From contig MEPU01000008.1 of NCBI GenBank assembly GCA_001771815.1, forward strand, positions 62,001 to 126,000: a stretch of DNA of 64,000 bases. Direction: 5' to 3'. The translations under genes were made by a program, and so were the position numbers. Source of the DNA: Bdellovibrionales bacterium RIFCSPHIGHO2_01_FULL_40_29 (GTDB taxonomy: Bacteria > Bdellovibrionota > Bdellovibrionia > Bdellovibrionales > Bdellovibrionaceae). How positions within the stretch are numbered: position 1 is the stretch's first letter; every line of letters starts with the position of its first letter. Below the pieces are notes generated by a model that saw only the letters and a list, made by a program, of their open reading frames with translations, was not told the origin of the DNA and did no database searches. Below, in pieces: positions 3,171 through 23,064 of the stretch.

Positions 3171-4165
3171 ACACTCAAATCACCATAGCTAAAAAGCTTA
3201 AATCCTCGATCCACCGCCCAAGAATAATTATGTTTCACAACCTCAAGCCCTGCAAAACCCGCAACTAACGCCAGCAATGTTGACTCTGGTTGATGAAAGT
3301 TCGTCAGCAGTCGATTAACAATTTTAAAATCACTCCCAACTTGCAAAAGGATATCTGTGCTGCCGGATAATTTTCCGGTTCGAGCCACACTTTCTAATAC
3401 CCGAGTTGTCGTTGTTCCCAAACTCCAAATACCCCGTTTTTCCAAAACGGCTTTTTGAATCTGATTCCAAGCGTCCTCATTCAATTCATAAATCTCTTCA
3501 TGCATCTTATGATCAGATAAATCCTCGGTCAGTACAGGCAAGAATGTCCCTAAGCCCACATGCAAAGTCAGATCAATCACAAGGACACCTTGATTTCGCA
3601 ATGTTTGAATGTCTGTTTCTGAAAAATGCAAACTTGCCGTCGGTGCGGCAAAGCTTCCGGGTTTTACCGCCCATGCTGTTTGGTACCAAGAATCATCGGC
3701 TGTGATATTATGTCTATCACCACGAGCTCGTTGAATATACGGTGGCAATGGCAATTCAGCAATCTGATCAAAATCACTTTGGTTGATGGCTGGCCGAACA
3801 GAAACTTTTTGTGGGCGACCTTTTTCAAGAAGAGTCATCTTGAATCCCTGTGGCAATTCAATTTGATCCCCTATAGAAAATTTCTTCGAGGGAAATAAAA
3901 CACTCCAGGTGTTCGCAGATGGAGTGTTTGATTCCAGTTGATCCAGAAATAAAATTTCAAGCTCCTTCGCAAAAACGCGACGCTTTAAAACTTGCGTGTT
4001 ATTAATAACAAAGACATCTCCCTGAGGTATTTTGGCAATTAATTCTGGAATTGTTAATTGCTCCGCCGGCCGACGACCGTCAACATACATCACGCGAGAC
4101 GGACGCGACGGCTCTGTGGCGATCAAGGATTCAGGATAATCATAATTTAATTCAGAACGTTTCAT
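3155..4165 (-). CDS. queA: S-adenosylmethionine:tRNA ribosyltransferase-isomerase QueA
   Basis: QueA transfers and isomerises the ribosyl group of SAM onto preQ1-34 of tRNA, making epoxyqueuosine. The 336-residue protein is full length and has family motifs: ELNYDYPESLIATEPSRPS at the N-terminus, DVFVINNTQVLKRRVFA, AAPTASLHF, HVGLGTFLPV and LLTNFHQPESTLLALVAGFAG. The start codon follows the stop of the cyclase gene with no gap, and the 3' end overlaps the methyltransferase gene by 16 bp. Confidence 0.96.
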   Translation of the reverse strand: MKRSELNYDYPESLIATEPSRPSRVMYVDGRRPAEQLTIPELIAKIPQGDVFVINNTQVLKRRVFAKELEILFLDQLESNTPSANTWSVLFPSKKFSIGDQIELPQGFKMTLLEKGRPQKVSVRPAINQSDFDQIAELPLPPYIQRARGDRHNITADDSWYQTAWAVKPGSFAAPTASLHFSETDIQTLRNQGVLVIDLTLHVGLGTFLPVLTEDLSDHKMHEEIYELNEDAWNQIQKAVLEKRGIWSLGTTTTRVLESVARTGKLSGSTDILLQVGSDFKIVNRLLTNFHQPESTLLALVAGFAGLEVVKHNYSWAVDRGFKLFSYGDLSVWIKP

Positions 4166-6013
4166 TTAGGACACTCGTTTGATTTTTTCAGAATCTGCCG
4201 CTTCATAATCAGAGTACGGTGTTTTAACCTCAACATTCAACCCATTTTCATTTTTATAACCTCGGACTTTAAACATCGTAATCGGTTCGGCTCGCCCTTT
4301 GACTTCTGCAGCACCAGCACGTTCGACTAAAAATTGATCTGCTAATTTTTCAATAACTTGTTCAGTGATTAATAAATCTGTTCCAAAAGATTTTGTCGAG
4401 GCCTCCACTCGCGAGGCTGTATTGACTGTGTTTCCTATCACTGTGTACTCCATTCGTTCGCTGGAACCAATTGTTCCCGAAATGGCTTCGCCCGCATGCA
4501 GCCCCATACCTATTTGAATCGCGTTCTGCCCCCGCCCCAACCGGATCTGATTAAGCTCATTTAACGCTTCTCGCATTTCAAGACAAGCCCTCACTGCATT
4601 TCGCGCGTCATTCGAACTTGTCTCCGGAGCGCCCCATACCGCCATAATAGCATCACCAATAAACTTGTCGACGACACCACCATTTCTATTTATAATTCCT
4701 ACCATAATTCCAAAATACTCATTCAACATGTCGACAACTTCTTGAGCATCACGACTTTCAGAAAAAGCTGTGAATCCACGGATATCACTAAAAAACACAA
4801 TCACATCTTTGGATTTTCCACCCAGCACCAAATCCGAATTTATTAAACTTTCGGCAATAGATGATCCATGAAACTTACTCAATAGATTTTTCACTTTATC
4901 GCGCTCTTTGAGGCCCACCGTCATTTGATCAAAAGCCACAGCAAGGTCTCCGACCTCATCATTTGAATTCACCAATTCTCTGGCATTCAAATCGAACTGA
5001 CCCTTTGAAACCAGATGAATCAATCCGGCTAATCGTTCAAGGGGCTTCGTTAATGAAATTGAAAAAAGCGAAATCATCACAATCGAAGCAAAAAAAGCAT
5101 ACGCCAAATTTTTAATAAATTCCCGTTTCACGGATTCTGCAGGCGCCAAAACCTCACTCAACGGCGTTTGAAAAACAACGATTGGTCCAAAACCTGTGCG
5201 CGAGTACACACCAATGTTCTCACTTTTATCTTTAAGATCAGCGAACTTGCTCTGAAATTGATTCGTCTTTAAATTTTCAAGGGCATGAACCAACAAAGGC
5301 TCCTTGCTGAAAGACTGTCTTCTGAAAACTAAACTAGCATCCGCGTGGGCCAGCAAAACCCCTTTATCATCCGTCAAATAGGACAAGCTTTCACTGCGTT
5401 GCAAAAATGGTTTTTGTAACGCCGATAAATGAATATCAGCAATCAATATCATGTCGATTTTTCCATTTTGATCTTTAGAAAAAGGCAGTCCAATAGTAAA
5501 CAGACCGAAGTGAGGATCTGAAGTCGCAATATATCCTGTAACATTTCGAAGGACCACTTGTCCTTCGAAAATATCACTTAAATTAAACTGAGAGCGTTCC
5601 CGCAGATATATAAAATACGACGGATGCAGCTTGTATTCTGAAAAAGCTTTTGGCTGAGTCTCTCGAAAAACCACCTCAGGTTTTAAATCTTTCACTTTAA
5701 TCACTTCAATATTCAGTAAGTAAGGATCTGATGTGAACATCGATAGATCTTTCTCGGATGGTTTTTCATTTCGAAGGTGCAATGTTAAAAACTGGGTCGC
5801 AAGAAACTGAGATTTCTCCATTAAATGAGAAATGATCAGACGCGTTTCCTGCGCACGAGATTCTGCCTGCTGCGAGACAATCTGCCACTCGCGGTCAATG
5901 CTCTCACTGCTGATGCGGGCATGATTGGTATAGGCCGTTGGAATCATTGCCGATAACAAAATAATCACCGTCATCAAAAAAAGCTTAATCCAAATGGGTA
6001 TTTTGAAGCTCAT
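4166..6013 (-). CDS. Membrane class III adenylate cyclase with periplasmic sensor and HAMP domain
   Basis: 615 residues. Order: N-terminal membrane helix (about 8-28), a periplasmic Cache-like sensor region of roughly 260 residues, a second helix (about 290-312), a HAMP linker (SLTKPLERLAGLIHLVSKGQF), then a class III cyclase domain. The catalytic domain has both metal aspartates (FFSDIRGFT, FIGDAIMAVWG), the adenine-selecting lysine and threonine (DKFIGDA, YTVIGNTVN) and the transition-state Asn/Arg pair (NTASRVEAS). It is therefore predicted to make cAMP from ATP. It abuts the FN3/beta-barrel gene (one base) and queA (no gap). Its co-occurrence with the FecR protein suggests an envelope-sensing unit; the ligand is unknown. 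Confidence 0.9.
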   Translation of the reverse strand: MSFKIPIWIKLFLMTVIILLSAMIPTAYTNHARISSESIDREWQIVSQQAESRAQETRLIISHLMEKSQFLATQFLTLHLRNEKPSEKDLSMFTSDPYLLNIEVIKVKDLKPEVVFRETQPKAFSEYKLHPSYFIYLRERSQFNLSDIFEGQVVLRNVTGYIATSDPHFGLFTIGLPFSKDQNGKIDMILIADIHLSALQKPFLQRSESLSYLTDDKGVLLAHADASLVFRRQSFSKEPLLVHALENLKTNQFQSKFADLKDKSENIGVYSRTGFGPIVVFQTPLSEVLAPAESVKREFIKNLAYAFFASIVMISLFSISLTKPLERLAGLIHLVSKGQFDLNARELVNSNDEVGDLAVAFDQMTVGLKERDKVKNLLSKFHGSSIAESLINSDLVLGGKSKDVIVFFSDIRGFTAFSESRDAQEVVDMLNEYFGIMVGIINRNGGVVDKFIGDAIMAVWGAPETSSNDARNAVRACLEMREALNELNQIRLGRGQNAIQIGMGLHAGEAISGTIGSSERMEYTVIGNTVNTASRVEASTKSFGTDLLITEQVIEKLADQFLVERAGAAEVKGRAEPITMFKVRGYKNENGLNVEVKTPYSDYEAADSEKIKRVS

Positions 6014-6014
6014 G

Positions 6015-7622
6015 CTACAATCCTATCTCGACCATCAGGCCAATATAATCTGCTTTTAAAAATCCATTATTTAAAGTTCCTGCCACAATGGGATCCGCGC
6101 CAGATCTTTCGGTAGCCTCATACTCATATGATTCTTCTTGATGTGTCACACCGATTAAAGCTGTCACAGTATCATTGAACTTATAACTCATCATCATTCC
6201 AAGTTGAAAGGAAGTCGGAACTTTTACCCGACGACCGTTGGGGGCAGATTGATTCTCAAAAAAACTGTAAAAATTCTGACTGTAATTCATTTGCAACCCC
6301 ACTTGTGGACCTAGTGAATACCAATACTCCATGGCTAAACGAGGGCCAGAAACATTCGCCTTGTGAAATCCTGATTGATTCATCTGCTCATCTCCATAGA
6401 GGACTGGCAATTCTTTGTGACTTAATCCCAGTGATAAACGAAGCTCATCGCGATATGTAAATTTATAGCGATAAAGCGCATTCAAATCCAAACTATTAAA
6501 GGCCTTATTTTGATCATTTAAAATCACATGACTTGAATTTAGAAAGCCACTGAATCCCCAAGAATAGTTCGATTTAAAATACCCAGTGCCTACTCGCAGC
6601 GTCCCACCCAAAGGTTTCACTCGGGTTGTGGTGTGCGATTCATGAACCAACGAACTCATGCTGAACTGAGTGATCAGCCAACTGGCTTGAGCGTAAAATC
6701 CATTGATTCGATCAATGGATTTTGTCACCGAGGCATTGTACTCAGCCGCTGGTGTTCGAACTGATGCCAATTCAAAATTATCCACTTCGAAATCACTTTG
6801 CTTACGAAACGGTGCTTTCGCTCCCACCTTAAGTCTGTACTGACCACCACCCCATTGGGGATTAAATTTCAACTCTGTTCCTTTGAAATCATTTGCAACC
6901 ATCAGCGGACGCCAGCGTTTCTGAACGCGGTCATACCGCTCTAGTAAAACTTGATAACTTTCTGCAAGATTATTTTTTTCCCAACTGATTTTCCGAGAAT
7001 ACTCGGACTTCACAGAAATAATATCTGGCTTTTCTAATGCCTCCGCAATAACAGAAAATTGAACACTCGCTGTTTGTTCCAAATCAGAAGCCACATTTTC
7101 ATCAAGGATTGTTTTCACTGAAACTTTATATTCTGAGGCCACAGGCAATTCCAGCTCAACCTGATTTGTTCGTGAAATCTGTGTCAGGACTTCTTGATTT
7201 GTTCGGATATCCATAGCCGTGATTTGATAGGTTGCAATCCCTGGATTTGGATTCCAATTGATGCTTATTTTTTCAAAATCAAAACTGTCTGTTTCAATTC
7301 TCATTTTTTCTGCAGGATTTGTTATCTTGATCTCGGGAACTGTGACCGTAAATTTTTCCCATGCACTCCATGGCCCAGGCACTTTTCGTTGATCGCGCGT
7401 TCGCTGACGAAATTCATAATGGTTATAAGGTAACTCCATCTCCACCACAGGATTTTTCAAACTCAGCACTTTAATCAGTTTAGACTCACCTTGTATTCTA
7501 AACTCAAACTCATAAAGCGAAGCATCTTCAACCTGATCGAATTCCATTTCCAGAACTCGCGTTTGTGAAAAAACGACTGTTTGAAAAAAAAATACAATCA
7601 CAAAGCCCAGAGTTTTTATCAT
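6015..7622 (-). CDS. Exported protein with fibronectin-III-like repeats and C-terminal beta-barrel-like domain
   Basis: 535 residues with a signal peptide (about 1-19, ending VVFSQ). Residues roughly 20-290 contain repeated beta-sandwich segments in fibronectin-III style, such as SINWNPNPGIATYQITA and ISWEKNNLAESYQVLL. The last 240 residues show alternating aromatic/hydrophobic strands (GLQMNYSQNFYSFF, YIGLMVEIGL) typical of an outer-membrane barrel. It overlaps the FecR gene by 4 bp (ATGA), so the two are likely partners. I infer an outer-membrane protein with a periplasmic FN3 part; no specific function is recognised. Confidence 0.75.
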   Translation of the reverse strand: MIKTLGFVIVFFFQTVVFSQTRVLEMEFDQVEDASLYEFEFRIQGESKLIKVLSLKNPVVEMELPYNHYEFRQRTRDQRKVPGPWSAWEKFTVTVPEIKITNPAEKMRIETDSFDFEKISINWNPNPGIATYQITAMDIRTNQEVLTQISRTNQVELELPVASEYKVSVKTILDENVASDLEQTASVQFSVIAEALEKPDIISVKSEYSRKISWEKNNLAESYQVLLERYDRVQKRWRPLMVANDFKGTELKFNPQWGGGQYRLKVGAKAPFRKQSDFEVDNFELASVRTPAAEYNASVTKSIDRINGFYAQASWLITQFSMSSLVHESHTTTRVKPLGGTLRVGTGYFKSNYSWGFSGFLNSSHVILNDQNKAFNSLDLNALYRYKFTYRDELRLSLGLSHKELPVLYGDEQMNQSGFHKANVSGPRLAMEYWYSLGPQVGLQMNYSQNFYSFFENQSAPNGRRVKVPTSFQLGMMMSYKFNDTVTALIGVTHQEESYEYEATERSGADPIVAGTLNNGFLKADYIGLMVEIGL

Positions 7623-9112
7623 TTAAACCTCAGGGTTTTTAACCGTGGGGCCAAGATCTCACTGGTCTCTGAAACAATCACAGATTTCATAACGCTGTTC
7701 GGGCTGACTCGCTGATACTGATCCACCGCTGAGAGTGATAAAGAATATTCGCCAGGAAGCATTCCATTGAGTTTCATGGAAGTTTTTTGCTGCACCCACT
7801 CTTTGATGACTTTTCCATCTTTATTCCTCAAAATGAGTTTGTACTGGGTAGCACTTTCAACAGGAACCCATTGAGTTTGATAAGATCCATTGGGTGCTGC
7901 CTGATGCGTTGTTGTCTCTAAATCCCAATCTGGTTTTGGTAAAAACGGAAGCTCTTGAGAAATAATTGTTTTTTGAGTGGTTGCCAATTTTTGACTGTAC
8001 TCATCAACAGCTTCGATTGAAGCCAAATAACGACCTGGTTTTTCCACAGGAACTTTAAATTCCGTCTCACTGATTTTAACAAATTCCGTGAGAATGATAC
8101 TTTCACCATCAAAAATTTTGATCACTAAATTTTTAGCTTTCAAAGGATTCTTGACCTGCCACTTCAAATCAAGTTGCGGCTGGGTGGTATAGACTTGCGT
8201 TTCTTCTGTCAGTTTGTTTTCCCAACTGACTTCGACAGATGGCTCTTTTGAAAGGACTTCGACCTGAGCAATTTGTTCAACAATCGGCAGCACTTCAAAA
8301 CGCACGGATGTGACCAGATGTTTTTCTAGGTGCTCGACCTGAACAATATTTTTACCAAATCGAACTGGCAAGATGGCTTCACCGTCTTTCAAGCTCACGG
8401 GATTGACGGGAGTAAGATCATTTCTTTTTTGACCCACTTTAAAAACAAGTTCTTTCCAAGGAATGTTCGGATTTCCAAGCCAGTTGAGTTTAATTTCTGG
8501 AACTTTTGACTTAATGACAGACCAGTTCTTTGGTTCAGCGATCACCATCTGAACAGACGTTCTTTTCAGATCTTTAATAATGCCATCTTTGGTCAGAACA
8601 GAGGCCTTACCACTGATCACATTCACACTCACTGCAGAATCTTTCGTTTTTGAAAAGCTCGCAGAGGCTTTTGTTAAAGTGATCGCCCCCTCGCTTGTTT
8701 CTAGAGTTAATGCGGAACCACTGTCATTGCTCGAAGAATCTACAAAAAGATTTCCTTCCAGCAGATTCAACGAGATCGAATTCTTATTTTTCGAAATGGT
8801 AATGAGCGAATCGGGTTCAAGATTCAAAAGAGCATCCGTTTCCAAAAATCGAATTTGCAAATCACTGTCTGATGATGTTTTAATCGTTTCTCCCGAGTAA
8901 AGTGATTCTCCGAATTCAATCACTTGCCATGTCCGATGTTGGGATAATTTTTTGCGAGAAATATTTTCTAATTTTTCAACCTGAGCCATAGGTTTTTCAT
9001 TGATATGAAATCTCAATGTCGTGTAGTGGTGAGTAAAATAGTACCACGTCGCCACAACTCCGCCGACCGATGCGCAAAATGAAATGAAAATTCGTTTTTT
9101 TATCGAACTCAA
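7619..9112 (-). CDS. FecR-domain membrane-anchored periplasmic protein
   Basis: 497 residues starting at a TTG (9110-9112) preceded by GAGGAG and AAGGG. One membrane helix lies near residues 10-27, then a FecR-type domain (about 55-190: GESLYSGETIKTSSDSDLQI, ALLNLEPDSLITISKN, LLEGNLFVDSS). Ig/FN3-like beta-sandwich repeats run to the C-terminus (LKLNGMLPGEYSLSLSAVD). FecR proteins transmit or scaffold envelope signals. It heads the run with the FN3/beta-barrel protein and the adenylate cyclase, overlapping the former by 4 bp. No sigma factor gene is nearby, so classical FecIR signalling is not supported here. Confidence 0.82.
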   Translation of the reverse strand: MSSIKKRIFISFCASVGGVVATWYYFTHHYTTLRFHINEKPMAQVEKLENISRKKLSQHRTWQVIEFGESLYSGETIKTSSDSDLQIRFLETDALLNLEPDSLITISKNKNSISLNLLEGNLFVDSSSNDSGSALTLETSEGAITLTKASASFSKTKDSAVSVNVISGKASVLTKDGIIKDLKRTSVQMVIAEPKNWSVIKSKVPEIKLNWLGNPNIPWKELVFKVGQKRNDLTPVNPVSLKDGEAILPVRFGKNIVQVEHLEKHLVTSVRFEVLPIVEQIAQVEVLSKEPSVEVSWENKLTEETQVYTTQPQLDLKWQVKNPLKAKNLVIKIFDGESIILTEFVKISETEFKVPVEKPGRYLASIEAVDEYSQKLATTQKTIISQELPFLPKPDWDLETTTHQAAPNGSYQTQWVPVESATQYKLILRNKDGKVIKEWVQQKTSMKLNGMLPGEYSLSLSAVDQYQRVSPNSVMKSVIVSETSEILAPRLKTLRFK

Positions 9113-16507: not shown

Positions 16508-16921
16508 ATGGCTGAAAATTTTTTAAAATGGGATCCTAATTTATACGGCGTTAATATCGCAACGATGGACGCAGAACATAAACAGTTGGTTGAATATATG
16601 AATCAACTCCACACTAACGTCGAGAACAAGGCCAGCAAGGCTATCCTACAAAAATCACTGACTGATTTGTTTAACTACACCCTCAAACATTTTAAAGATG
16701 AAGAAGAACTTTTTAAAAAAATCCCGAACTATTCTTTTAAAAATGCGCATGTCAAAATTCATGAAGATCTTATTGCAAAATTAAAAACATACGCAGCTAC
16801 ATTCGAGAAAACAGGAACATTCCCTCCGGATTTCTTTGTCTTTCTAAAAGTCTGGCTGACCGCGCATATTGCCGGAATTGATATGAAGTATAGTAATGCC
16901 CTTTACAACAAGGCCGCTTAA
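16508..16921 (+). CDS. Bacteriohemerythrin
   Basis: 137 residues, the usual size for a single-domain oxygen-binding diiron protein. All expected ligands are in place: H24 (DAEHKQL), H61 and E65 (KHFKDEE), H81 and H85 (HVKIHED), H120 and D125 (HIAGID), plus the N-terminal W8 that starts the family motif. It binds O2 and may serve oxygen storage or sensing. A good SD (AAGGAG) lies before the ATG. The barrel protein gene follows after 17 bases, so the two may share a transcript. Confidence 0.93.
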   Translation: MAENFLKWDPNLYGVNIATMDAEHKQLVEYMNQLHTNVENKASKAILQKSLTDLFNYTLKHFKDEEELFKKIPNYSFKNAHVKIHEDLIAKLKTYAATFEKTGTFPPDFFVFLKVWLTAHIAGIDMKYSNALYNKAA

Positions 16922-17902: not shown

Positions 17903-17948
17903 GGAATCTTGAAAGCGCACGCATCCGTTTTCAAGGTTCCTTTTTTTT
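17903..17948 (+). terminator. Rho-independent terminator between convergent genes
   Basis: GGAATCTTGAAA (17903-17914) pairs with TTTCAAGGTTCC (17929-17940) with one G-T pair, then a T-run of eight. On the opposite strand the same stem ends with a weaker TTTTC, so it may work in both directions; the stop codon of the minus-strand gene at 17947 lies within the T-run. Confidence 0.75.
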
Positions 17949-19626
17949 ACTTTAAACTTTGCTGATGACTCAGAACGAGTGAATCCACCTGTTCTGGAGA
18001 CATCAAGGGTTTATAAATTCCCTGAGAAATATTTCTTCGCAAAAGCCCTGGTGATGTAAAATAGCGATTCATCACATGAGGTACAACCCGGCCAACCATG
18101 ATATCCGAGCTAGCCAATCTGTACTTTGTTGTGAAATTTTTCAATAATGTTGTTAGCCCCTTTACCGAGCTGAGTGTCGTGTTATACACATTATTTAATT
18201 GCTGCAACATGGTCCGCTGCTCTGGTGGAAGCAGTCTAATTTTAACAATTAGCTGAGCCATCTCGGCTATCTGCTTAAAATCACCATTGAGATAATGCGA
18301 CAACTGCGGAAACATAAACTCAAATATCATCTGATTGAATTTATATTTTTCCTGTAGCGAGTAGGTCACAAACTCGCGACCATCTGTTGATTTTGGAATT
18401 TGAGGTTGAGCACTCTGATGCCGGGACATTTCTAATAAGTAACCGCGCTCATCACCAGTTGAACTGGCAATGAACTGAATGTTCTTCCCATAAAGATCAT
18501 AAATCAAGGCCCGCATATTAGCGATGCGCAAATCCATTTCTTTGATCCAAACCGGCCCGTCTTCTTCTTTTTCAAAGCGGTGATAAACGGTCAATGGACG
18601 CGGCACGATGTCTGTCACTAAATCTCGAATCACTTTAGAAATTAATGTCGCCTCTCCGCCCATGGACACAATATAGTCTCGACTCATATCGGGTCGGCCT
18701 TGATCCTTCATAATATCTTTCAAGTTGATCAGCTCCATTGGCATTTTTGCTGCGATCGTAGCTGCCGCTTCATAGGAATCTTGTCCAGGCTCAAATTGGT
18801 CAATAAATTTTTGATAGCCATCCCGGAGATACTTCACTGAAAATGCTTTCTTAAAAACATAGTCAATAGCAAATCGCACATAGCCAGGATCGTTTAATAT
18901 TTTACGACTGATTGCCGCTCGGACCTGCGGAAGACTCACATACAATTTTCCCAATGCCTCGCCATTCATTTGATAGTTCGGCTTATCACCAACCTGAAGA
19001 TCTGTATCCAGCGCCGACATAGGAAGCAAGGACCTCATAGCAACCAAGGCTTTAATCACAGACTGGCTCATGCGAAGATATTTTTCAATGCTGGGTTCAT
19101 CAATATAAGGACGATCCGGATGATGCCAGAAGTGAGAATGTCCAATTTCAACAATTGTTCCAGCATGAGCAAACGAATCTTCAAGCGTGTGTAAACCTGC
19201 GGCGGCCATCATCAAATCGCCCCGCATAAGCCCTTCATTAAAAAGTTCTGTTCCAAATTCGTGGTCCGCTTCGGTTTCTGTAAAGCTACGTAACTTTTCA
19301 CCCGTTGATGGATCTAAAAATGTCGGAAGTGTATTAACAGTCACCTTATTGGCAACTCGAGATCCTGGAAAATGCAACAAACGACGTTTTTTAACACCTG
19401 TATTTGCAAAAATAATCATGGTCAAAGGATCTGAAATATAGGACTCATCAACCCATTGGGCCGCTGTCGCAATCTTTAAAGACACTTCATGGCGAATCCC
19501 CGTAAATCGGGCCATCGCATAAGTTCCATAAAAATGAGTATCCATATCATAGGCTTGAGAAACGATTGAAAAAGTAAGAGTAAAAATCAAAATCACATTC
19601 CGCATAAGCGAAGTCAGTGCAATCAC
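17947..19626 (-). CDS. Exported DUF6765/zinc phospholipase C-like protein
   Basis: 559 residues starting at GTG (GAAGG four bases before); an alternative ATG is seven codons in. A signal peptide ends near residue 25 (SIVSQA). The first 200 residues carry a histidine/aspartate pattern of the zinc-dependent phospholipase C/S1-nuclease fold: D29-T-H31-F, WVDES near 58-62, GLHTLEDSFAHAG and a later HSHFWHHPD. The long C-terminal part has no assignment. Metal-dependent lipase or nuclease activity is inferred only. It faces a shared terminator at its 3' end. Confidence 0.65.
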   Translation of the reverse strand: MIALTSLMRNVILIFTLTFSIVSQAYDMDTHFYGTYAMARFTGIRHEVSLKIATAAQWVDESYISDPLTMIIFANTGVKKRRLLHFPGSRVANKVTVNTLPTFLDPSTGEKLRSFTETEADHEFGTELFNEGLMRGDLMMAAAGLHTLEDSFAHAGTIVEIGHSHFWHHPDRPYIDEPSIEKYLRMSQSVIKALVAMRSLLPMSALDTDLQVGDKPNYQMNGEALGKLYVSLPQVRAAISRKILNDPGYVRFAIDYVFKKAFSVKYLRDGYQKFIDQFEPGQDSYEAAATIAAKMPMELINLKDIMKDQGRPDMSRDYIVSMGGEATLISKVIRDLVTDIVPRPLTVYHRFEKEEDGPVWIKEMDLRIANMRALIYDLYGKNIQFIASSTGDERGYLLEMSRHQSAQPQIPKSTDGREFVTYSLQEKYKFNQMIFEFMFPQLSHYLNGDFKQIAEMAQLIVKIRLLPPEQRTMLQQLNNVYNTTLSSVKGLTTLLKNFTTKYRLASSDIMVGRVVPHVMNRYFTSPGLLRRNISQGIYKPLMSPEQVDSLVLSHQQSLK

Positions 19627-19738: not shown

Positions 19739-20113
19739 CTAAAGCAGCTGCTCGCGACGAGACAAGGCCTCGTGAATGGTTTTTTTCATTGTATCCAGTT
19801 CAAATGGTTTTGCCAGAACTCGATACTGTCCGACAAATTTGGTGGCTTCGTCAAAATCCCCGCTCATAATAATTATTCCAGGCGGCTTCTTTAATTTTTC
19901 AATTGCATTGATCTCTTTAGCAAAATTGAATCCGGGCAAAATAAGATCGCAAATCAGCAAATCAAACGAGGATTGCAATACTGTTGGCACAAACTGAGCT
20001 CCCTCGCTCAATGGGGTTACATGAAAACCAATTCCCGATAAATAATCAGAGAAAATTTCTAGCAAATTCAAATCATCCTCTAAAACCAAAATACGCACCA
20101 AGCTAAACCCCAC
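19739..20113 (-). CDS. Stand-alone response-regulator receiver domain
   Basis: 124 residues, one CheY-like receiver without output domain. The acidic pair D13-D14 (VLEDD), phosphoacceptor D56 (LLICDLILPG), a hydroxyl residue in IIIMSGDFD and the lysine in VLAKPFELD are all present. The first start is GTG at 20113; an equally likely GTG at 20098 gives the typical RILVLEDD beginning. No histidine kinase is nearby, so its partner is unknown. It is divergent from the acyltransferase/diiron operon. Confidence 0.88.
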   Translation of the reverse strand: MGFSLVRILVLEDDLNLLEIFSDYLSGIGFHVTPLSEGAQFVPTVLQSSFDLLICDLILPGFNFAKEINAIEKLKKPPGIIIMSGDFDEATKFVGQYRVLAKPFELDTMKKTIHEALSRREQLL

Positions 20114-20313: not shown

Positions 20314-20964
20314 ATGTATGCTATTATAGATTTAGCTCGTTTGAACCCAGAATCCCTTGCTATTGCTAACCGTGCCTACGAAATGTGGCATTCCCGTTTT
20401 GTCAGCATTCTTGATGAGGCCGGAGAAAAGCTTACTCCAGATTATTTTTATCGCTCTAAATACATCTCGGTATTATATGATGACACAAAGGTCATTGCCA
20501 TGTGTCTACACAATGTTCTGGATTTGCAAGCAAAAGGAGTCTCAGAACTCTCCTATCTAGATCCCGTTAATCAAATCCTCAAAGCACAGCTCAAAAAAAG
20601 ATCAGAGCGAATCTTAACTGTTGAGTGGGTTGCTGTTCATCCTGATTCGGTCCGTCAAAAATGCGCTGATATTATAATGGGATTAGCTTTTTCATTTTTA
20701 AGCGATTCAGAATGTACTGCCGCAATGGGCTTCTCACGCACGGATTATAAGGCTGATAAAGTGGCTGAAAAATTCGGAACGCAAAAACTAGATTTAATTA
20801 TACGGCATGGAATTGAATGCGGAGTCATGCTTCTCAAAAAAGAAAATCTCAAGCCCCATCCAGACAAAAGTATTCAAGAAACAATTGATGATCTTTATGG
20901 TGAGCGCTTGGACTTCACCTATACAGGACTTACTTCTCAAAACACAAGGAGATTGGCAGCATGA
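20314..20964 (+). CDS. GNAT-like acyltransferase (related to acyl-homoserine/acyl-amino acid synthases by pattern)
   Basis: 216 residues from the ATG at 20314, preceded by GGAGGG. A GNAT-like core is visible: ISVLYDDTKVIAMCLHNVLDL, then ILTVEWVAVHPDSVRQK (acyl-CoA/ACP-binding strand and loop), and AAMGFSRTDYKADKVAEKFGTQKL with GVMLLKK. The layout recalls long-chain N-acyl amino acid and autoinducer synthases. Its stop overlaps the ATG of the diiron gene (ATGA), so the two are made together. Substrate unknown; assignment is by pattern only. Confidence 0.65.
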   Translation: MYAIIDLARLNPESLAIANRAYEMWHSRFVSILDEAGEKLTPDYFYRSKYISVLYDDTKVIAMCLHNVLDLQAKGVSELSYLDPVNQILKAQLKKRSERILTVEWVAVHPDSVRQKCADIIMGLAFSFLSDSECTAAMGFSRTDYKADKVAEKFGTQKLDLIIRHGIECGVMLLKKENLKPHPDKSIQETIDDLYGERLDFTYTGLTSQNTRRLAA

Positions 20965-21584
20965 TACAAACCATGGACAAAGCTATCAAAGAGTTACATC
21001 CACTTATCAGACAAATGGAGTGGGAAAATCCTTCCGTCTACGCCACATGGCTTTCACAAATTCATCATATTGTTAAAACAAGCGTTCCCTACCTAGGCCT
21101 GACTGTTTATCATTCGGTGAATTATCCTGATTTTCAGAAAAGATGTTATGAACATATCCGCGAAGAACTGAACCATGAAAAGCTCATCGAGGCTGATCTG
21201 AAAAACCTTGGAATTCCAATGTCCCGAGAACTGCCTTCAACAATGCTGATCTATCAACCCCAACACTATCAAATCACCATGAAAAACCCGCTTAATTTTC
21301 TTGGGTACATTTTTTTCTTAGAATTGTTGGCACCAGCATATTGCCCAGAAATAATGGAACGAGTTCCTAATAAAAAAGCAATTTCATTTCTCAAACTTCA
21401 TGGCAATGAAGATGAAGGCCATATTAAATCTGCCCAGCAAGTCCTCGCGACATTACCCACTGAAATCCAACAAATGGTGCTGAGTAATTTTCATATGACA
21501 CAAATCGCATATCGAGAGATGCTCCAAGAAATACTTATTGCAAGCCGTTGTCAAATTGAAGCGCCCCACAAAGCTGCAGCTTAA
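20961..21584 (+). CDS. Haem-oxygenase-like diiron oxygenase/oxidase (HDO type)
   Basis: 207 residues, all-alpha. Candidate iron ligands are E69 and H72 (HIREELNHEKLIEADL), E121 (FFLELLAPAY), and H147, D151/E152 and H154 (KLHGNEDEGHIKSA). This spacing matches the haem-oxygenase-like diiron family, whose members carry out N-oxygenation, decarboxylation or C-C cleavage in small-molecule synthesis. It is coupled by ATGA to the acyltransferase gene, suggesting it oxidises that enzyme's product. No cytochrome or ferredoxin is adjacent. It could alternatively be an unrelated iron-redox protein. Confidence 0.72.
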   Translation: MIQTMDKAIKELHPLIRQMEWENPSVYATWLSQIHHIVKTSVPYLGLTVYHSVNYPDFQKRCYEHIREELNHEKLIEADLKNLGIPMSRELPSTMLIYQPQHYQITMKNPLNFLGYIFFLELLAPAYCPEIMERVPNKKAISFLKLHGNEDEGHIKSAQQVLATLPTEIQQMVLSNFHMTQIAYREMLQEILIASRCQIEAPHKAAA

Positions 21585-21585
21585 T

Positions 21586-22215
21586 TTATAGCGATTGATC
21601 TAAAGTCTTTTTAAGAGCACGAGCACTTTTAGTGGTCTTGATTGAATTTGCAAAGCGGATTAACTTCTGCCTGATTCCTGGAACTTCTTTGCTTTTAACA
21701 ATGGCTATAACTCCAGAAATATTTTCGCCATGAAATGGCGCAAGCATTTTAATTTTAATATAACAACTGGCTCGCTCTTCAGTTTTCATTTCAGATACTA
21801 AATGCCAATCAGCAATATTTTCTTGAATCTTATTAGTTGCAATACACGTCTGCAAACTGCGTAAGATACGTTTTTGAATCAACTCATCACGGTGAAATAG
21901 CTCAGCCCAGTCATTTGTGGCCAAATCATGGTACGAGTAATTTGTTCTATGAATAAAATCACCCATAGCAAATAAAAATCGAGGATCTGAGGTCCAAGCT
22001 TCTATAGAATCGCCGTCTTCAAGCTTCTCAAAAACCTCTGAATCCAGATGCAAACCGCACTGACTCATGATGTTCATAAGACTTTGCTTATTACGAAATG
22101 GCTTATCTGACTCTAGGGCAGAAATAAGGGTGGCTAGTTTAATTAAGATCTCTTGTCGATTCTGAGGCAACAAAAGAAGTGATTCTGGTGTATGTGAGAT
22201 GATTTCTAAATTCAT
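21586..22215 (-). CDS. Hypothetical protein, possible PAS-like sensor
   Basis: 209 residues, soluble, no recognised family. The segment NYSYHDLATNDWAELFHRDEL followed by a beta-rich stretch (WHLVSEMKTEERASCYIKIKML, GVIAIVKSK) recalls a PAS-like fold and may bind a small ligand. Basic C-terminal end (KTTKSARALKKTL). AAGG seven bases before the ATG. Convergent with the diiron gene (1-base gap). The XRE regulator is the next gene upstream on the same strand, but a terminator lies between them. Confidence 0.6.
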   Translation of the reverse strand: MNLEIISHTPESLLLLPQNRQEILIKLATLISALESDKPFRNKQSLMNIMSQCGLHLDSEVFEKLEDGDSIEAWTSDPRFLFAMGDFIHRTNYSYHDLATNDWAELFHRDELIQKRILRSLQTCIATNKIQENIADWHLVSEMKTEERASCYIKIKMLAPFHGENISGVIAIVKSKEVPGIRQKLIRFANSIKTTKSARALKKTLDQSL

Positions 22216-22260: not shown

Positions 22261-22289
22261 ACAAAAACCCCTGCTTCTGAGGGGATTTT
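22261..22289 (-). terminator. Rho-independent terminator of the XRE regulator gene
   Basis: On the minus strand CCCCT (22284-22280) pairs with AGGGG (22272-22268) across a 7-base loop, then TTTTTGT. AT pairs extend the stem outward. It sits 35 bases past the stop of the XRE gene. Confidence 0.65.
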
Positions 22290-22323: not shown

Positions 22324-22599
22324 TTAAGAAACGCTGCGCTTACCTTCGTCAATTTGTTCAGTTAAATCATTAACATACACTTCAACTAAGGTTTTCGTGA
22401 TCTTCTTTTCAGGAATCCCTAAAATAATAACCAGCTTACCAATGACTTTTAAAGGAATTTTAGAAAGGCCGCGTTCAAATAATGAAACGAATTGCATTGA
22501 TTCATAGCCTAACTTATTTGCCAACTCAAGCTGGGTCATATTGGCTTTGGTTCTGTACTCACGAACAAGTTGTCCTAGATCTTTATTAATATTGCTCAT
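22324..22599 (-). CDS. XRE-family transcriptional regulator
   Basis: 91 residues from the ATG at 22599 (AGAAGG six bases upstream; a GTG one codon earlier is too close). The N-terminal helix-turn-helix is clear: LGQLVREYRTKANMTQLELANKLGYESMQFVSLFERG. A C-terminal helical region (IGKLVIILGIPEKKITKTLVEVYV) may dimerise. Its targets are unknown, and no toxin partner is adjacent. It lies beside a 460-base gene-free stretch. Confidence 0.85.
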   Translation of the reverse strand: MSNINKDLGQLVREYRTKANMTQLELANKLGYESMQFVSLFERGLSKIPLKVIGKLVIILGIPEKKITKTLVEVYVNDLTEQIDEGKRSVS

Positions 22600-23064
22600 C
22601 ACATGCCTTCTCTTCTATTTTATTATATATCGACTTCTTTAATATATACCGCATCGCTTTATCACGCAATACTAATTAAAAAATCAATTCCAAGACCTTG
22701 GGCTTGTTAAGAAACAAATATCTTCGTACTAAATTAAAACGCTTTACCTGCTCTAAGGACTCAATATGGTGCGTAAAGACGTGGCAAAAAGCCCTGTCTA
22801 GAAATTTTTCCACTTTCAAATGACAGAAGCTATGCTCATCTCAAAGGTACCCGCAATCCCTTGTTGGCCATGTGATTGCAATATCAGATTGTATGATTAA
22901 CATGCGGTTGACGCCCTCAACCGCAGAGTTAATTGACTGAATCTGACTTATTTGGAACTCGAATGGCGAATAAAAAGTTGTGTTATTGAATGTCAAAGTT
23001 CATCGATGAAACTTAAAATTTGCTGTTCGAGTTCTTTCTTTTTTTTAATAAAAAAATAAACTTA
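22600..23064. other. Gene-free stretch with one GC-rich hairpin
   Basis: No ORF with start signal or recognised protein in either strand. The only structure is an 8-bp hairpin, GCGGTTGA (22904-22911) with TCAACCGC (22917-22924) and a 5-base loop, without a T-run. Short AT-rich blocks at both ends probably hold the promoters of the XRE gene and the 3' region of the stress protein. Confidence 0.5.

Follow-up and report, generated by a model that had tools for sequence, protein, structure and literature searches.

In the window (the whole 64,000-nucleotide stretch of DNA analyzed here), two genes of the forward strand were found exactly where the initial annotation had placed them, each running from an ATG to a stop codon at the limits given in Table 1, and they overlap through an ATGA as it had noted. 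The first, immediately preceded by AAGGAGG, encodes a GNAT-like protein and the second encodes a predicted haem-oxygenase-like diiron enzyme (HDO) of 207 aa. The pair had been described as standing alone, which does not hold, as it sits in a four-gene cassette with the genes for a putative sensor of predicted PAS fold (F3) and a putative regulator of XRE-type HTH fold. Between the latter two genes lies a terminator-like hairpin, recognized only by consensus match, and such terminator-like sites were found 4 times against the 2.4 expected from shuffling. The orphan receiver domain noted next to the pair has no recurrent counterpart beside it in 20 mapped loci and is not a meaningful neighbor. 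Sensor kinases or response regulators adjoin some other cassettes (e.g., L139). Farther upstream, the window carries a single-domain bacteriohemerythrin and a secreted-looking protein.

Table 1. Features of the cassette and its surroundings, in positions of the window.
Feature	Position	Strand	Basis
Single-domain bacteriohemerythrin	16508..16921		PF01814, 7e-13
Secreted-looking protein	17947..19626	-	559 aa; DUF6765 match restricted to the N-terminus
Orphan receiver domain	19739..20113	-
GNAT-like acyl synthase, probable autoinducer-synthase/FeeM-like fold	20314..20964	+	216-aa ORF with RBS; AF2 model; VIA
Predicted haem-oxygenase-like diiron enzyme (HDO), ligands E69, H72, E121, H147, D151, H154	20961..21584	+	PF14518; invariant ligands
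Predicted PAS-fold protein F3, putative sensor, convergent with HDO	21586..22215	-	209 aa; recurrent neighbor; AF2
Weak terminator-like hairpin, intergenic (HTH/PAS)	22268..22284	-	Consensus match only
XRE-type HTH DNA-binding protein, putative regulator	22324..22602	-	92 aa; PF01381, 1.8e-8

The AlphaFold (AF2) model of the GNAT-like protein, made from a 34-row alignment, has a mean pLDDT of 92.9, and the predicted GNAT fold is firm. In VIA comparisons with this model, the best row was RpaI (Z 15.6, 190 residues aligned, 3.1 A), followed by BjaI (Z 15.1, 188 aligned), FeeM (2g0b, Z 15.0, 168 aligned), and LasI (Z 14.7, 169 aligned). These AHL synthases and FeeM match the model along its full length and are its nearest structures, in line with the resemblance to acyl-amino-acid or autoinducer synthases that had been proposed from the sequence. 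Other GNATs come within about 1-2 Z units, mostly over shorter alignments of about 137-166 residues, and a Foldseek search puts general GNATs in its top rows, BjaI and FeeM ranking inside the top ten. Because general GNATs reach similar Z, membership of the window protein in the AHL synthase/FeeM-like branch is only likely on the strength of the model. Among 39 GNAT members, Pfam and NCBIfam models gave no meaningful match (a single match, to a viral model, is spurious), and the curated autoinducer-synthase model of these collections matched none of the 39. The FeeM model PF21926 matched neither the window protein at E up to 1 nor any of the 39 members at 0.001, and a profile search of the PDB returned chance-level matches only. 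None of the 39 members has the canonical Q/RxxGxG/A pyrophosphate loop. The GNAT represents, in effect, an undescribed acyltransferase family for which Pfam and NCBIfam hold no model.

The window HDO matches PF14518 with 37.4 bits (gathering cut-off 28.9; 3e-9), a model that all 33 relatives searched also match. Of its metal ligands, E69, H72, E121, H147, and H154 had been named in the initial annotation and are borne out, while D151 had been missed; none of the six varies among 33 non-redundant homologues that are 25-39% identical to the window protein, and in a set of 69 homologues the six columns are without exception in the rows having letters there. In a search of the PDB with the family profile, the HDO-type matches were 3dde (9.5e-20), a structural-genomics protein with HDO fold, and MboA (9ypi, 7.9e-7), and the ligands align with both. 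The ligands of MboA, an enzyme of mangotoxin biosynthesis, are Glu86, His89, Glu143, His172, Asp176, and His181 (PMC13185094), and the general HDO metal-ligand motif is E-H-E-H-(D/E)-H (PMC11363339). On the evidence of its sequence and of the alignment with HDOs of solved structure, the window protein has a complete predicted ligand set, E-H-E-H-D-H, for the diiron pocket presumed at the outset. In this six-ligand motif and the Pfam match it resembles MboA, UndA, SznF, BesC, and CADD, but its partner is an autoinducer-synthase-like GNAT, and for the cassette HDOs, as a group of diiron enzymes, the genomic surroundings are informative.

The AF2 model of F3 (pLDDT 82.4) aligns with many PAS domains at Z 9-10.4 over about 100 residues in the region ~65-178, by which the protein is predicted to contain a PAS fold. 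The F3 family has no clear match in Pfam (PAS_9 is weak and under the cut-off), and the weak Pfam matches of PAS members were never relied on by themselves. In the 20 mapped loci, the F3 family is present in 14 and the small HTH family in about half, and 63 of the 114 HDO matches in the order described below have a PAS gene no more than 3 kb away, against 0.40 expected. Far from both GNAT and HDO lie 73 of the 150 listed PAS matches. Bdellovibrio genomes (G004, G007, G010, G014, G017, and others) carry up to 6-8 F3 paralogues each, many of them unlinked to GNAT or HDO and reminiscent of solo receptors. At one locus (L061 in genome G026), two different PAS-fold genes (5227-5907 and 7298-7915) stand one on each side of the GNAT-HDO pair.

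The window's own 2.9-Mb genome has one HDO of the cassette kind. Single-sequence searches of 141 genomes of the window's order gave 114 HDO and 90 GNAT matches, and 66 of the 90 GNAT genes lie directly upstream of an HDO match on the same strand. With a GNAT profile, a GNAT was found within 3 kb of 91 of the 114 HDO matches in the order against 0.34 expected, so that chance adjacency is rejected and the conserved pairing asked about initially is evident from the neighborhoods themselves. The two enzymes are moreover fused in one ORF at two loci (473 aa in L021 of genome G088; 458 aa in L139), which supports the notion, put forward with the initial annotation, of enzymes that make and then oxidize an acyl product. 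In a scan of named genomes, the finds came mostly from Bdellovibrionota, with additional ones in Methylosinus sporium, Methylocystis, and one Myxococcales MAG, and the GNAT gene was directly 5' of the HDO gene in all of them. Across the phylum, GNAT profile matches were present in 136 of 369 genomes, G004 included; at the high-GC loci L128, L131, and L136, the GNAT or HDO was recovered through a six-frame profile search. Genomes can hold several divergent HDO/GNAT copies, and the distances of the two families correlate modestly (Mantel r 0.26 against a permutation maximum of 0.17, species phylogeny not being corrected for). Plasmid pBdHM1 of Bdellovibrio sp. HM001 also bears the whole module (HTH, GNAT-HDO, and PAS), each of the four genes carrying the annotation 'hypothetical protein'. 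A role in anti-phage defence was considered and rejected: PADLOC gave no match for the GNAT, the HDO, or the PAS protein, and the HTH protein matches a generic HTH.

We tallied the neighbors of the GNAT in 91 de-duplicated loci with flanks of at least 6 kb, a set deliberately enriched for HDO-less GNATs, so that its proportions are not population frequencies. Near the GNAT, an HDO was found in 67 loci, a desaturase in 15, an FAD oxidase in 4, a PAS gene in 58, and an HTH gene in 37; a desaturase or FAD oxidase is present in 13 of the 24 HDO-less loci of this enriched set. In the order as a whole, PF00487 lies within 3 kb of 16 GNATs against roughly 0.7 expected, the latter being an estimate from match numbers. 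Locus L167 (genome G054), from the window's own genus, has two tandem cassettes of GNAT, PF00487 fatty-acid desaturase, PAS, and HTH genes without an HDO, locus L170 combines a GNAT with PAS, a methyltransferase, and an FAD-linked oxidase, and in L174 (G184) the GNAT is fused to an FAD_binding_4 oxidase in a protein of 770 aa. On a quick GNAT tree with long branches, 16 changes of the tailoring label are required; counting only well-supported branches, the HDO-only label must have changed at least 8 times. Linkage to PAS and HTH genes is frequent also where other oxidases replace the HDO. The HDO is, in essence, one of several interchangeable oxidases in the cassette. Eleven loci have no tailoring gene and belong mostly to one Bdellovibrio paralogue clade. 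The tandem arrangement of L167 is a duplication of the GNAT-desaturase-PAS-HTH cassette spanning 3808-7741. The Bdellovibrio-type loci L079, L080, L175, L186, and L191-L194 have a second GNAT paralogue that stands alone, with no HDO nearby and in most cases no PAS or HTH gene either, and these paralogues form one well-supported clade.

This exchange of enzymes bears on the reading of the HDO as a p-aminobenzoate synthase of the self-sacrificing CADD-like kind, or as some other cofactor enzyme, with the GNAT modifying a protein. CADD-type HDOs exist (PMC11965152), and in the HDO family Y27 is invariant and Y184 nearly so; nevertheless, the linkage and fusion of the HDO to an autoinducer-synthase-like GNAT, its replacement by a desaturase or FAD oxidase, and the divergent copies within single genomes make this reading very improbable.

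Among known systems, the acyl-oxazolone pathways Tyz and Oxz (TyzA-TyzB-TyzC of M. tuberculosis and OxzAB of Pseudoalteromonas) are of particular relevance: TyzA is an acyltransferase whose closest structures are FeeM and BjaI, and TyzC is an O2-dependent oxidase acting on the TyzA product (PMC10404671). In those pathways the oxidase is of flavin nitroreductase type and is accompanied by a ThiF cyclase, whereas the window has a predicted diiron HDO with PAS and HTH genes added, and in sibling cassettes a desaturase or FAD_binding_4 oxidase takes the oxidase role. Neither a ThiF cyclase nor a nitroreductase-family oxidase was found beside the window pair or among the annotated neighbors at sibling loci. 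The likeness to LuxI/LuxR lies in a predicted synthase fold (that of RpaI, BjaI, and LasI) linked to a sensor or regulator. The window differs in having no match to an autoinducer-synthase or LuxR-type family; a LuxR-type receptor (autoinducer-binding plus GerE) is absent from its cassette, whose candidate sensor is a PAS-fold protein distinct from the XRE-type HTH protein beside it, and the operon has an extra oxygenase. To FeeM the window GNAT is akin in predicted fold (2g0b, Z 15.0) but not by match to PF21926. A true FeeM takes the position of the GNAT in a zetaproteobacterial MAG (L120), where this N-acyl amino acid synthase, a FeeM by its match to PF21926 (1.3e-29), is followed by a related HDO (PF14518, 6e-12) and preceded by a divergent LuxR-type regulator (GerE). 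A FeeM-HDO pairing as a rule in Zetaproteobacteria was rejected, because FeeM exceeds the cut-off in just 2 of 78 genomes, and the pair remains a single case. Since the LuxI and FeeM sequence tests fail and LuxR and ThiF partners are missing beside the window pair, the cassette is set apart from these systems, and by comparison with them it is analogous to LuxI/LuxR signalling and to the Tyz/Oxz pathways and a member of neither.

From the genes, the predicted folds of the GNAT and PAS proteins, the HDO ligand set, the linkage, the fusions, and the swapping of enzymes, we infer the substrate, the acyl product, the reaction order, and a role in sensing or signalling. Our best reading, for which we consider the chances about even, is of a cassette that synthesizes a small fatty-acyl molecule, modifies it, and probably also responds to it. 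Like FeeM, TyzA, and AHL synthases, its GNAT-like enzyme would take the acyl moiety of acyl-ACP or acyl-CoA and attach it to an amino acid or amine. With its diiron(II) site and O2, the HDO would then oxidize the acyl conjugate (e.g., by desaturation, hydroxylation, or C-C cleavage), a tailoring step that in sibling cassettes would be performed by the membrane fatty-acid desaturase or the FAD-linked oxidase. Making and then oxidizing an acyl product finds support not only in the GNAT-HDO fusions but also in the fusion of GNAT to an FAD oxidase, and TyzA/TyzC offers an established precedent by which, on analogy, acyltransferase first and oxidase second is the most economical reading. The cognate sensing and transcription arm would probably consist of the PAS protein together with its XRE-type HTH neighbor, and the whole would act as an autoinducer-like circuit. 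That the PAS/HTH linkage is kept from one oxidase to another suggests local sensing of the product or of its synthesis, in a manner similar to quorum sensing, and since the oxidase is exchanged among sibling cassettes, related strains would make different molecules. Against this reading count the commonness of the GNAT fold among acetyltransferases (with Z tied within about 1) and the missing pyrophosphate loop; the PAS genes that are so often unlinked and the lack of a LuxR-type receptor in the window; and the single FeeM-HDO pair and the modest Mantel correlation.

Also counted against it are the 23 of 91 loci in which the HDO has no PAS or HTH gene within 3.5 kb, those of Methylosinus and Methylocystis among them. 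Such loci favor an alternative in which the same enzymes make a specialized acyl metabolite that is not a signal (antibiotic-like, a surfactant, a membrane aminolipid, or metal-binding) and PAS/HTH only control expression by redox, oxygen, or another cue. Oxygen or redox sensing is common for PAS domains. Moreover, natural-product pathways are the source of most known HDOs and FeeM-like synthases (PMC11363339, PMC13185094, PMC10404671). The small size of the cassette (1-3 enzymes) and its frequent PAS and HTH linkage even with other oxidases suit a signal circuit better, however, and no exporter is recurrent among the neighbors; we consider the non-signal product rather unlikely. A reversed order of reactions, in which the HDO would first oxidize a free amino acid or fatty acid and the GNAT would then acylate or use the product, appears distinctly less probable still. 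The characterized HDOs UndA and BesC do use free amino acids or fatty acids (PMC11363339), distant gammaproteobacterial HDO genes adjoin an AMP-binding enzyme and an SDR, and the order of reactions is not deducible from the order of genes. Nevertheless, GNATs occur with a desaturase or FAD oxidase in place of the HDO, and alone in Bdellovibrio, so that the GNAT reaction would be independent of an HDO product, and in the TyzA precedent the acyltransferase comes first.

The preferred reading of a tailored and sensed acyl product can be extended, tentatively and with less confidence than the reading itself, to signalling cassettes throughout the phylum of the predatory Bdellovibrionota, in which the acyltransferase product would be diversified by exchange of HDO, desaturase, and FAD oxidase and read by PAS together with a separate XRE-type regulator, the unlinked PAS paralogues being solo receptors. 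The cassette is real, widespread, and apparently undescribed; in the open-access literature, we found no paper that describes, for Bdellovibrio, an autoinducer-like synthase together with an oxygenase. Division of Bdellovibrio inside the prey is synchronous and its controls are still being elucidated (PMC7186360), and the cassette provides a defined gene set for testing chemical communication in predators. Outside the cassette, a distant HDO is found in a conserved operon on plasmids of Citrobacter, Vibrio, and Pantoea (L239-L242), which by annotation alone comprises a 'thermostable hemolysin', an AMP-binding protein, the HDO, and an SDR.
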